64,000 bases of DNA from Sphingomonas asaccharolytica NBRC 15499 (GTDB lineage: Bacteria; Pseudomonadota; Alphaproteobacteria; Sphingomonadales; Sphingomonadaceae), in NCBI RefSeq assembly GCF_001598355.1, contig NZ_BCYU01000014.1, positions 1 to 64,000 on the forward strand, given 5' to 3'. Under the pieces are notes generated by a model, which did not search any database, was not told the origin of the DNA, and saw only the letters and a program-made list of their open reading frames with translations. Position numbers and translations under genes: made by a program. Below are positions 10,828-53,656 of the stretch, piece after piece (position 1 is the first letter of the stretch; the number at the start of each line of letters is the position of its first letter).

Positions 10828-12180
10828 TCAACGGTACTCGACGATGGCATCGCGCCTGAGGTCGCGCAGGATCTTCTGCGCGCGCTTGTTCACGCGTTCT
10901 TGCTCCATCTGATATTGCAGATCGGCTGCGTTGGGCAGGTTAGGAGCCTTGGCATCGTCGCGCCCGCACAGCACGAGGACGCTGACGCCTTCGGACGGCG
11001 ACCCGAACGGTGGCGTCGCCTGACCGATTTGCATGCCCAGGACCATCTGCTGCAAGGCCTGCGGCAAATCGCGCACAGTCAGCGAATCGTTGTCGACGAT
11101 TTCCGCGCCCATGCCCGCCGCCGCTTGGTTGGCGGCGCCGCAGCCATTGATTGCCTGGGTCGCCTTGGCGAACTCGGCAGCGCGGCCCTGCGCCTGTTCC
11201 TGGGTCGTACCAGCCGGGAAGGTGATCTTGATCTGCTTCAGGCTGAGCTTGGCCGCGAGCGGATCGATCCCGAGCACCTGCCGCTTTTCCTGGAGGAACA
11301 GGATATCAAAACCGCCCGGAAGCTCGATCGGACCGGCAAGTTGTCCGGGCTGCATCTGCGACGCCGCGGTTGCGATTTCTGCGGGCAGCATCGCCGCCCG
11401 AACCCAGCCGAGATCGCCCCCGCTCGGACCCGTCGTGGTTTCGGACTGCGTCTGGGCGAAATATCGGAACGTCTGTTTGCCATCCTTCATCTGCTGCATC
11501 ATGTTCTGCATGTTGGCGACGACGGCCTGCGGATTGGTCCCCGCGTTCTTGTAGATTTCGTAGAGGTGATATTCCTCCGTACCCTTGTCCTTGGTCATGC
11601 GGTCGAGGATCGATTGCACTTCCTCTTCGCTGACGTTCACGCGCGGTTCGACCGTGCGGCGCAGATAGCGCTGCCAGGCGAGCTCGCCTTCGATCTGCTT
11701 GCGCACCGAGCGTTCCGACGATCCGATCGAGCGCAGGAAGGCGGCGAACTTCTCCGGCGGCTGGTTGAAATTCTTGGCGACGCGGCCGAGCGCCTGGTCG
11801 ATCTCCGCCGACGTGACCGTGATGTCGCTCGTCTTGGCTTCCTGGATCTGCAGCACTTCGTCGATCAGGCCGCGCAGCACCATCAGCCGCAGCTGGTCGC
11901 GCTCCTGGTCGTTGAGCTGATACTGATTGGCGGCGATGATCAGCGCCATCCGCTGGTCGACATCGGTGCCGGTGATCACCACGCCGTTGACGATGGCGGT
12001 CGGCTTGCGGACGTTGGGATCGAGCTTGCCGAAGATCTGGAGGTTCTCCGGAATATCCAGGCCGGTCTGCGGCACACTGCTGTCGGGCACGGTCTGGGCG
12101 ATCGAGGCACCGCTCGCCGCCATCATCGCGCCGGCACCAAGCGCAAGCGCGATGCGCGCCGAAGTCGAGAAAATTTTCAC
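10828..12180 (-). CDS. surA: Periplasmic chaperone/peptidyl-prolyl isomerase SurA
   Basis: SurA escorts unfolded outer-membrane proteins, including LptD, across the periplasm to the BAM complex. With the GTG start at 12180 the 450-aa protein has a signal peptide (KIFSTSARIALALGAGAMM, cleavage near ASA/SIAQ), a SurA N-terminal helical domain (about 50-180) and one clear parvulin domain (about 203-300, with GGDLGWV). The frame stays open upstream to 12477 and an ATG occurs at 12246. Those extra codons run into the repeat element, so I reject them. Unusually, a 327-bp element separates it from lptD. Confidence 0.92.
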   Translation of the reverse strand: MKIFSTSARIALALGAGAMMAASGASIAQTVPDSSVPQTGLDIPENLQIFGKLDPNVRKPTAIVNGVVITGTDVDQRMALIIAANQYQLNDQERDQLRLMVLRGLIDEVLQIQEAKTSDITVTSAEIDQALGRVAKNFNQPPEKFAAFLRSIGSSERSVRKQIEGELAWQRYLRRTVEPRVNVSEEEVQSILDRMTKDKGTEEYHLYEIYKNAGTNPQAVVANMQNMMQQMKDGKQTFRYFAQTQSETTTGPSGGDLGWVRAAMLPAEIATAASQMQPGQLAGPIELPGGFDILFLQEKRQVLGIDPLAAKLSLKQIKITFPAGTTQEQAQGRAAEFAKATQAINGCGAANQAAAGMGAEIVDNDSLTVRDLPQALQQMVLGMQIGQATPPFGSPSEGVSVLVLCGRDDAKAPNLPNAADLQYQMEQERVNKRAQKILRDLRRDAIVEYR

Positions 12181-12260
12181 CTGAAAGAAACCCCATGAAC
12201 AACCGGGCGCACCCGACAAACCGTTTACGCCTGCCCGATTTCGCATGAACGCATGCTTAC
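12181..12260 (-). other. surA 5' leader downstream of the repeat element
   Basis: This 80-base spacer lies between the structured element and the surA GTG. A GGGG stretch about ten bases before the GTG is the best ribosome-binding candidate. I see no clear promoter. Confidence 0.4.
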
Positions 12261-12587
12261 GGCGCATAGCCATAACCGGCAATACCCTGGACGGAGCGGA
12301 TTTTGGTGCAGGGCTAGGAACGAGGAGGGAGCGATGCATTATGCATCGTGACCGACGAGCGACGATGAACAGGTCGCCGTGTCCCCCGGACACGGCTAAA
12401 ACTGCCGGGGGCAGTTTTACCTGTTCATCATGCGCCAAAATCCGCCCGCCGCTTCGCGGTTGCGCTGGGAGGCGCACCGGCGTCGTCGCTTGCTTGCGCG
12501 TAGCTATCAGCTACGCGACTGCGCCGCGCTCCTAGCCAGCACGCCTCCCAGCGCAATCCAGGGCGTTGCCGGTTATGGCTATGCGCC
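12261..12587. repeat. 327-bp nested inverted-repeat element between lptD and surA
   Basis: The termini are 31-bp inverted repeats, 12261-12291 and 12557-12587, with two mismatches. Inside them: a 15-bp stem 12296-12310/12431-12445 (one mismatch); an 8-bp stem 12332-12339/12341-12348; an 11-bp stem 12364-12374/12419-12429 enclosing two 9-bp hairpins (12376-12396 and 12398-12418); a small hairpin 12449-12459; a 15-bp stem 12460-12474/12542-12556; and within that a 9-bp hairpin 12497-12517. Almost the whole element pairs. No convincing protein is encoded. It begins at the base after the lptD stop codon. It could be a MITE-like mobile repeat or a large structured RNA in the operon transcript. Confidence 0.85.
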
Positions 12588-14873
12588 TTATCGACCCAAA
12601 TTCTTGAATGCCAGCGTCAACAGGAAGCTGTTACCCGCCTTGGCGTCGCCAGTATTTTGATAGTCGCGGCGCCAAGTGAGGCCGAGGCGGAGGCAATCGT
12701 CCTCATATTGCACCCCCAGCCGATGACGGATCGGGTCGAAGCCGTCGGCGTTCAGCAGCTGCGGATCCTCGTTCTTGTCGGTCAGGTCGATCGTTGCCGA
12801 CCCGAAGATCGACCAGAAGCGCGCGAACCCGACCCGTCCGCCGACGCGAAGCTCCTCGCTGTCGCGCAAATCCTCGAGCGTCGGGCTGATGTTGCGATTG
12901 AGGCGGAGGTATCCGACCAGCAAATAGGTGCGCTTGTTGCCCACCGTGGCATCTATCTCGTTGCGGCGGATCGCGAAATTGTCCTTGTCCAGCCGGTAGC
13001 GGTGGACGATCGAGACGAAGTCGCGAACGCGAACTTCGGTGCGCCCGACGATATCCGACCAGCGATCGGTGAGGCCGGTACCGTCCGGGAAGATGGTCGG
13101 CTGGGTCGACAGGCGATAGCTCTGGCCGATCGTCGCGCTGATCGCGATCCCCGGCAGATCGAGCGCATAGTCGACGCCATAAGTGAAGCGCGTCGAATCT
13201 TCCCAGCGGTCGTAGCCGGGGAAACGATTGAGCGCGAAGAGATTGGAATCCTCGAGGTCGACCGCGCGGGCATCTTCGTTGGGAACGAGCAGGTTGGCGG
13301 TGGGCGGCGAGGCGACGATCTGAAAGCGCGGCGTCACCCGCTGCGTGCCGCCCATGAATTGGCCGATCAGCGGCCATTTCACGTCGAGCGCGAGCGCCGC
13401 GATCCCGCGCGTATGGAAACCACTGGCGCCCCGATAGCTGATGACCGAAGTCGCGACGGTATCGCTGGCGTTGTAAGCATCGCCGCGCAGATAGGCGGTC
13501 AGCGTCACTTCCTGCCCCCAAGGAGTGATCCGGCGCAAATCCCATTGCGCGCTGACAAAGGCGCGCTGGGTATCCTGACCGGCCGTCCGCGCGATGCTGA
13601 GCGTATTGACTTGCAGGTTGATGCGCCCGCCCAGGACGTCGTCGATCCGGCGGCGATAGTCGAATTCCGGCAAGGCAATCGGCTGCAGTCCCTGCCGGTC
13701 AGTGATGATATTCTGCCCACTTTGCGTGGTCGAGAGCCGAAGCGTTTGCACCGCCCAACCGTTGATCGCGAAATAGCTGTTGGCGTCGATTCGTTCGACA
13801 CTGAAGGTCGAGCGCAGCCGGTCGTCGTTGGAAATCTCGTAGCGGCGCAGGAAGGTTCTGTCGGTGGTCAGGCGCAGCGAGCCTGACACCGACCAATGGG
13901 GATCGAGCTGGTATCGCGCAACGCCGTCCAGATATCCGCGGAAAGCGGTTTCGGTCGTTATCGGGGCCGACGACGTCGCGAGCAGATCGCTCTGCGGCGA
14001 CACCGTGGCGTAACCGGTAACCTTGAACGCGCCCTTGGTCGACAATTGCTCATATTCGGCCTGGATCATCGGCGCGACGCTGGTGAACAGGCGCGGTGTG
14101 ATGGTCAGGCCCTTATTGTCGGCGAGCCGGAAATAATAAGGAACGCCGACCTCGAACCCGTTGGTGCGGCTATAGCGGATATCCGGGCTGAGAATCCCGC
14201 TTTGCGCACCGTTGCCGACTGGCGTCGACAATTTGGGCAGCGGAACGGTGGCGAAGCCGAACAGGTTGAAGCGCGCGCCAGTGAAATAGATGCGCTCGCG
14301 ATCGGGGCGATAGACGACCTTGACCGCGGTGACCTTCCACGACGGTTCCTTGGGACACCCGCCGGAATCGGTCACCGAACAGGGTGTATAAGCGGCCTGG
14401 CGCAAGGTGACGACGCCGCTCTCGCTACGCTCGCCCTTGACCGCGGCCAGCCGCCCGCCCTGTTCGAGCACAACGAGCATATTGTCGACGACGCCGTCCT
14501 TGAGCGTATCGGTCAGGTCGATCTTGTCGCCATAGGCGGTGTCGCCCTGGGGATTGGTGACCGCGATGTTGCCGATCGCCGTCACCTTGCCCGTCTTGCG
14601 GTTCCAGACCACCTTGTCGGCGCGCAATTTGTCGCCCGTGCGGTACATGCGGACGTCGCCGGTCGCCGTTACGATCTCCGTGTCGGTATCGTATTGTAGC
14701 GTGGTGGCCGAGAACTGAACTTGATCGGGATCCGTTGCCGCCGGCGTATCGGGCGCCGGCGGTGGCAACTCGACCGGGCGATCCTGAAGATCCTGCGCGC
14801 AAGCCGGTGTGGCGGCCGTAAGCGCGAGAAGAATCGCCGAGCCGGCCAGAAATGCGGAACGCGTGACGATCAC
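12588..14873 (-). CDS. lptD: LPS-assembly outer membrane protein LptD
   Basis: LptD forms the outer-membrane barrel that inserts lipopolysaccharide in classical Gram-negatives. A signal peptide (TRSAFLAGSAILLALTAAT, cleavage after CAQ or nearby) is followed by an OstA/jelly-roll domain (about residues 50-150) and a long beta-barrel ending FKNLGR. A cysteine pair, PCSVTDSGGC, lies in the periplasmic part. I chose the GTG at 14873, preceded by AAAAAGGG, over an upstream ATG at 14927. Sphingomonads are known to carry glycosphingolipids instead of LPS, so the cargo here is an open question. Confidence 0.94.
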   Translation of the reverse strand: MIVTRSAFLAGSAILLALTAATPACAQDLQDRPVELPPPAPDTPAATDPDQVQFSATTLQYDTDTEIVTATGDVRMYRTGDKLRADKVVWNRKTGKVTAIGNIAVTNPQGDTAYGDKIDLTDTLKDGVVDNMLVVLEQGGRLAAVKGERSESGVVTLRQAAYTPCSVTDSGGCPKEPSWKVTAVKVVYRPDRERIYFTGARFNLFGFATVPLPKLSTPVGNGAQSGILSPDIRYSRTNGFEVGVPYYFRLADNKGLTITPRLFTSVAPMIQAEYEQLSTKGAFKVTGYATVSPQSDLLATSSAPITTETAFRGYLDGVARYQLDPHWSVSGSLRLTTDRTFLRRYEISNDDRLRSTFSVERIDANSYFAINGWAVQTLRLSTTQSGQNIITDRQGLQPIALPEFDYRRRIDDVLGGRINLQVNTLSIARTAGQDTQRAFVSAQWDLRRITPWGQEVTLTAYLRGDAYNASDTVATSVISYRGASGFHTRGIAALALDVKWPLIGQFMGGTQRVTPRFQIVASPPTANLLVPNEDARAVDLEDSNLFALNRFPGYDRWEDSTRFTYGVDYALDLPGIAISATIGQSYRLSTQPTIFPDGTGLTDRWSDIVGRTEVRVRDFVSIVHRYRLDKDNFAIRRNEIDATVGNKRTYLLVGYLRLNRNISPTLEDLRDSEELRVGGRVGFARFWSIFGSATIDLTDKNEDPQLLNADGFDPIRHRLGVQYEDDCLRLGLTWRRDYQNTGDAKAGNSFLLTLAFKNLGR

Positions 14874-15035
14874 CAAACACCCTTTTTCCGGCGACGGTCC
14901 CTGACTGCCGGGCCGCCGGTATCGCATCCATGTCGCCGATCCGCAATCGCCGGCGCCCGCCTTTGCAGCCAGCGCAATAGCGGCCTAGAGAGGCGCGTCC
15001 AGCACGCATTTCGTGTTTTTGATTGAGGTTATTCC

Positions 15036-53566: not shown

Positions 53567-53656
<90 letters not shown>

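Follow-up and report, generated by a model that had tools for sequence, protein, structure and literature searches.

The window (the whole 64,000-nt stretch of DNA analysed here) carries lptD and surA, neighbours in one operon on the minus strand, and between them lies a palindromic element of 329 bp, a 65-nt inner module included (Table 1). Both gene names rest on NCBIfam matches below the model cut-offs and on the assignment made in an earlier, sequence-only reading of this DNA; the neighbouring pdxA, ksgA/rsmA and leucyl aminopeptidase genes match NCBIfam models above cut-off. That reading had bounded the element at 12261-12587, starting right after the lptD TAA and stopping 80 bases before surA. 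The element proved real, with its ends corrected to lie between two TA dinucleotides: its edge overlaps the stop of lptD, a TAA at 12590-12588 on the minus strand, and the surA start, a GTG at 12180, is 79 nt away. The match to a covariance model of the family (see below) spans 12259-12589. No gene was called across the element by a home-made codon scorer, in agreement with the earlier view that it encodes no protein. The sole RNA gene found in the window was a tRNA-Ser (TGA) at 53567-53656 on the minus strand.

An inverted-repeat search recovered the terminal inverted repeats and the stems that had been listed from the letters, and the element folds almost wholly, as had been claimed. The minimum free energy of 12255-12595 was -134.1 kcal/mol as DNA (shuffle mean -71.3, z -15.9) and -218.2 kcal/mol as RNA (shuffle mean -137.7, z -13.9), and 0 of 100 shuffles folded as well in either case. 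The 11-bp stem holding two 9-bp hairpins exists too, as a separate and optional three-way-junction module rather than a fixed part of the fold. The 5' loop of the window copy is complementary to the 3' loop except for one A.C.

Table 1. Parts of the element at the lptD-surA junction and its two host genes (window positions)
Feature	Position	Strand	Basis or remark
Mobile element, whole	12260..12588	+ (strand of better model match)	copies and ends
TA target duplication, left	12258..12259	.	sequence; single TA in empty site of L244/L245
Outer stem, left arm (sequence-variable terminal repeat)	12260..12291	+	inverted repeat; alignment A1 columns 2-34
Left arm stem, 5' side (approximate)	12292..12313	+	RNA fold, A1 structure
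Conserved 5' loop, AGGAAC in window, AGGAGC in family	12316..12321	+	A1 alignment
Left tip hairpin	12331..12349	+	fold, inverted-repeat search, A1
Nested 65-nt three-way-junction module with CCC and GGG loops, optional	12364..12429	+	missing in most copies read
Left arm stem, 3' side (approximate)	12430..12448	+	fold, A1
Central mini-hairpin CCGCTTCGCGG	12449..12459	+	both loop orientations found in family
Right arm stem, 5' side	12460..12481	+	inverted repeat, A1
Right tip hairpin	12497..12517	+	inverted repeat
Conserved 3' loop GCTCCT	12528..12533	+	A1 alignment
Right arm stem, 3' side	12535..12556	+	inverted repeat, A1
Outer stem, right arm	12557..12588	+	inverted repeat, A1
TA target duplication, right	12589..12590	.	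with 12588 forms lptD stop TAA, minus strand
lptD, host gene upstream in operon	12588..14927	-	ORF; NCBIfam LptD models below cut-offs
surA, host gene downstream in operon	10828..12180	-	ORF; NCBIfam SurA model below cut-off

The BLASTN search that had been proposed as a check found further copies in the window's own genome, one of which (C34, 89%) shares the inner module and several of which lack it, and matches in 20 of 61 related genomes (own included). The element is therefore not a local accident of this spacer: it is one copy of a dispersed family. We aligned 38 near-complete copies (alignment A1; copies at contig ends, partial and short copies were left out) and built a covariance model (R1) from them. 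With the own genome counted at each rank, R1 matched 78 of 151 genomes of the genus, leaving 73 without a match, 39 of 196 genomes and 18 of 63 genera of the order, and 16 of 289 genomes and 15 of 223 genera of the class, the last being less secure. Some matches in the order and class are partial or near E 1e-5 to 1e-7, and match numbers per genome cover the candidates scored, in which one place may count on both strands. At nine class-level loci the better strand scored 112-146 bits, and the opposite strand of the palindrome also reached 67-124 bits in seven of them; most bits thus come from pairing and not from letters, which makes the class-level matches weaker evidence than their E-values suggest. 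The motif AGGAG was at its expected place in six of these nine copies, the others reading GGGAG (L393), AGGAA (L388) and AGGCG (L392). In named genomes, 66 stretches contain the exact core pattern; they come from Sphingomonas, Sphingosinicella, Allosphingosinicella, Hephaestia and Sphingopyxis, and from a few records whose names stop at a higher rank. Plasmids and phages gave no match to one copy used as query, nor viral contigs to the core pattern. Genome G097, with 13 model matches, holds a near-identical pair of copies at two separate positions, L278 and L281 (262 of 269 columns alike); this pair suggests recent movement. Contigs end in or at copies in the window's own genome, G000 (end of C14, start of C62), and in G028 (C3, C9, C10, C11). 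Assemblies thus break at the element, and draft copy numbers are probably too low.

The family was compared across 165 distinct copies from 172 loci, drawn from alignments of the best 150 of 175 and the best 150 of 159 matches, keeping the best strand only and at least 240 nt and removing one duplicate; these copies are related, so cells in the pair counts below are not independent. The family has one cloverleaf (pair list from RNAalifold): an outer stem of about 30 bp, a left arm with a tip hairpin, a central mini-hairpin, and a right arm with a tip hairpin. Full copies typically have AGGGTC and GACCCT at their ends. Terminal inverted repeats are present, with a sequence that is not conserved between copies and is variable in the outer 25 bp. 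Copies from other orders, too, preserve the total length and the lengths of the stems. Length was 265-274 nt in 150 copies, the other 15 (281-387 nt) having inserts: a three-way module of 59-63 nt near 105-112 or 160-166, a 39-nt hairpin near 99, or 12 nt near 94. Most other copies read lack the three-way module at the window's place, and other copies hold it elsewhere in the element; in L087 it is not part of a large element, and weaker BLASTN matches to a free-standing module lie in L062, L076, L080 and L083. The stems of the module vary with complementarity kept. The 39-nt hairpin sits at the same internal position in six copies (L328, L340, L313, L343, L284, L286) and is similar across species. 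Shorter relatives of 168-192 nt, left out of the 165-copy set, match the model end to end (L070, L170, L171, L176, L063:2712-2899, L114) and are apparently without part of an arm. The central triloop was G-N-A or its complement T-N-C in 98 of the 125 copies readable there; d(GCGNAGC) hairpins are unusually stable in DNA. Short length, no protein, dispersed copies, a target duplication and terminal inverted repeats are the traits of MITE-like repeats, whose usual A+T-richness is missing here (G+C of matches 0.56-0.74).

Comparison of lptD-surA spacers revealed the target. The gap between the stop of lptD and the projected start of surA measured 407 nt in the window and 49-249 nt in 29 other loci; together with the window's own locus, these are the best 30 of 61 genomes. 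The two closest lptD relatives among these best 30, L244 (lptD 80%) and L245 (79%), have spacers of 85 and 80 nt, neither with the element. The L245 spacer begins TAAGCAACGGTTCATCCGATATCGGGCAGGCG, the window after the element reads TAAGCATGCGTTCATGCGAAATCGGGCAGGCG on the same strand, and this downstream flank matches the L245 spacer from its TAA onward. The element therefore interrupts the lptD stop codon at its TA, and this TA is doubled. This was the one clean empty site in all; the joined flanks of L096 and L281 gave none, matches outside their own genomes covering one flank, or both apart. Among the 165 copies, TA flanked the left end in 108, the right in 105, both in 64 and neither in 16, leaving 101 without TA on at least one side; TA makes up 1.4% of dinucleotides in these loci. 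The consensus is Y-TA-element-TA-R, the preceding base being mostly a pyrimidine and the following one a purine, so the copies display the TA duplication and preferred CTAG/YTAR target of IS630-type elements. CTAG is the target recorded for IS630 (Tenzen and Ohtsubo 1991, as cited in PMC2170065).

The base after TA was G in 157 of 165 copies, so a stop codon hit at its TA is restored as TAG; the window copy has A on its lptD side and hence TAA. Of 154 neighbouring gene ends, 62 coincide exactly with the edge of the element (59 TAG, 3 TAA), and 11 copies have a convergent gene on either side, each ending at the element. Such counts could mean a domesticated terminator or regulatory palindrome with a host function at gene ends. 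This we regard as highly improbable: the distribution is patchy (the 73 genomes of the genus without a match), 43 of 165 copies lie between divergent genes, base counts in the flanks reveal no T-run, and the closest lptD-surA relatives among the best 30 of 61 genomes do without the element. Use of stop codons was modestly above background (51 of 165 copies vs 56 of 273 YTAR sites that are non-coding or in stops). For the right-hand neighbour of L096, six of nine homologues end at the same residue or one before (L376 with TAG) and three run on; the six indicate that its stop is natural. Gene calls, made with the same codon scorer, by which a split gene could look like two, placed no copy inside a gene.

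The covariance check advised at the outset gave abundant compensatory changes, with double changes in 67 of 100 pairs of A1, yet here they do not imply RNA. A large structured RNA processed from the operon mRNA had been the other reading of the window. Extended to the family, it would be a small RNA, or an element that processes or stabilises mRNA, selected as a transcript and dispersed by chance. The very stable fold, the covarying pairs, internal loops that are GA-rich by eye, and the conserved loop letters all speak for it. Since the stems of an RNA usually evolve by way of G.U, the functional strand should show more G.U than A.C. Pairs of A1 found on both strands had GT 81 and AC 66. In the 165 copies, counts were GT 49 and AC 67 in the outer stem, 76 and 22 in its innermost pairs (one column supplying 59 of the GT), 140 and 29 in the left arm, and 26 and 108 in the right arm. 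The arms lean in opposite directions (Fisher p 8e-30), a strand-symmetric pattern in which neither strand behaves as RNA throughout. Against DNA stand the sum over these four helix groups (GT 291 vs AC 226, much of it in few columns) and the sense strand between same-strand genes (GT 133 vs AC 102). The nine class-level copies had GT 13 and AC 12, and 312 of their 558 cells held a Watson-Crick pair other than the Sphingomonas consensus. Watson-Crick pairing is thus kept without the consistent G.U preference of a functional strand.

The way in which changes accumulate also separates the two levels. Between the closest disjoint pairs of copies (55 pairs) we counted 300 double, 152 single and 7 other changes; double changes comprised 127 transversions and 173 transitions, single ones 40 and 99 (Fisher p 0.008), a difference that goes against selection on a transcript. 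L094 and L096 differ by 8 double and 0 single changes, L341 and L342 by 0 double and 7 single; in the strong helices, L338/L339 had nearly doubles only, in runs (pairs 4-9), and L109/L110 only singles. Central loops occur in both orientations (TTC 31/GAA 19, TGC 13/GCA 6, AAA 7/TTT 3, TCC 6/GGA 4), and the right tip was inverted in 2 of 165 copies (L285, L071), the left tip in none. Homogenised arms with inverted spacers are described as a mark of polymerase template switching (PMC8604942; PMC8794818), and the inverted loops and block-wise double changes accordingly point to DNA template switching.

The complementarity of AGGAGC and GCTCCT, with few double changes, is a further point on the side of RNA. 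After five alignment rows were shifted by hand, the double changes between these loops were confined to single copies (62-297, 64-295, 119-254, 120-253, 121-251), and 65-294 was unpaired in 15 of 38; a pairing of the two loops is only suggestive. Orientation relative to same-strand genes was even (46 vs 42). In Rfam 15 no family reached its gathering score in the window, and six other loci searched at E 0.5 gave two microRNA matches, far below gathering score. We conclude that stem complementarity is kept at the DNA level rather than the RNA level, and consider it very unlikely that the family is an RNA selected as a transcript.

Dispersed copies, an empty site with a TA duplication and a near-identical pair elsewhere all favour the alternative that the sequence-only reading had raised, a non-autonomous mobile DNA element, to which we assign a probability of about three in four. 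An enzyme supplied in trans would cut at TA and would know the element by its conserved inner loops, its folded shape or both, not by its terminal repeats, which vary; recognition of shape is suggested by lengths that are kept while stem letters are free, also in other orders. In an active lineage, DNA template switching would overwrite one arm with the sequence of the other, or else copies with mispaired arms would be unable to move. Double changes would hence arise en bloc and small loops would invert, and copies that stay put would decay by single mutations. A more far-reaching version, in which a class-wide mobile family depends on an enzyme that reads shape and not sequence, is tentative and to our minds falls short of even odds. 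The terminal repeats, free in sequence and fixed in length, would there be kept complementary because the element must fold, as a single strand or a cruciform, to move, and the inner loops AGGAGC and GCTCCT would dock the arms.

The family could instead be an ordinary MITE moved by an IS630/Tc1-mariner-type enzyme, its arm complementarity being a by-product of template switching with no role in movement. The TA duplication in Y-TA-R fits, as do the homogenised arms and inverted spacers documented for template switching, and some resident copies differ by single changes only. However, IS630/Tc1-mariner-type enzymes are expected to need conserved terminal repeats, and the outer 25 bp vary here; mutation alone would not preserve the total and stem lengths, which hold in other orders too. 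For each of four transposase families we searched 5-10 genomes. DDE_3 (PF13358) had no match in 5 of the 10 genomes searched, all five with several copies, and the genome of the near-identical pair, G097, had none to PF13358, PF01609, PF01797 or PF13586. In the window's own genome DDE_3 matched once, in a sequence broken by an internal stop, and Y1_Tnp twice. Five DDE_3 loci were examined for their ends, and the one readable pair (L355) was unrelated to the element. Taken together, we judge an ordinary MITE to be unlikely. Copy-bearing genomes mostly did not show the Y1 transposase of REP/RAYT systems: PF01797 was found in 2 of 9 genomes, the own genome G000 and the element-free G010, and in none of G097, G143, G167, G030, G028 and G084. 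Clusters of flanking proteins had at most 4 members, with no evident transposase among the 25 clusters listed (first 100 residues, one member each).

The element belongs with the small palindromic mobile repeats (ERIC, Correia, RUP, YPAL) and differs from them in size, G+C, taxonomic reach, fixed cloverleaf and variable terminal repeats. Correia/NEMIS terminal repeats are conserved in sequence and belong to one genus, whereas the element has variable ones and is found in many genera of its order and probably its class. REPs are tied to Y1 enzymes, for which seven of the nine genomes tested here had no match, and at 20-40 bp they are far shorter than the usual 265-274 bp of the element. Integron attC sites have sequence-variable stems and a conserved folded shape that is read as DNA; variable stems and a conserved shape are common to both, although attC sites are cut by the integron integrase without TA duplication and reading of the element's shape is our inference. 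As described in PMC2229807, ERIC/IRU (RU-1) of enterobacteria is likewise a small non-coding mobile repeat with TA ends and a target duplication, but has 127 bp and a 7-bp terminal repeat, where the element has a cloverleaf with a variable 30-bp outer stem. The same source gives Correia/NEMIS of Neisseria TA ends and a target duplication, with 24-bp terminal repeats and short and long forms that differ by an internal 50-bp sequence, a likeness to the optional module here. It also describes YPAL as a small palindromic mobile repeat that is not A+T-rich, unlike the usual MITE-like repeats, and RUP of Streptococcus pneumoniae as non-autonomous, with a TA target and a proposed IS630-type mobilisation. 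RUP shares its ends with IS630-Spn1; among the five DDE_3 loci here, one of them readable, no insertion sequence had ends matching the element. BOX of the pneumococcus and GTAG-REPs often supply a neighbour's stop codon, as the element does (PMC3049150; PMC3733652), but BOX is built of boxA, boxB and boxC modules. In the literature searched, judged by titles and abstract openings and with subscription journals mostly outside it, we found no description of this family, and a word search of two repeat surveys (PMC3733652, PMC2267715) showed that they do not name sphingomonads.

The family is common in a well-sequenced order, yet matched no Rfam family at gathering score. It covaries as strongly as a textbook RNA, yet wobble pairs, transversions and inverted loops, when tested, point to DNA; the family thus warns against inferring a functional RNA from compensatory changes alone. 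If a mobilising enzyme does read its shape, this would be a new mode of recognition for a transposable element.

The lptD stop codon is occupied in another species as well. In L315 (G118:C7, 1265-1530) an element lies at the same stop codon in the opposite orientation, with the end letters ACGG..CCTT common to both. Since the lptD of L315 is 69% identical to that of the window and two closer relatives are without the element, an independent insertion is likelier than an inversion. In L258 (G026) and L259 (G030), lptD ends in TAG and is followed by a different long, G+C-rich inverted repeat; the junction at the end of lptD may attract several palindromes.
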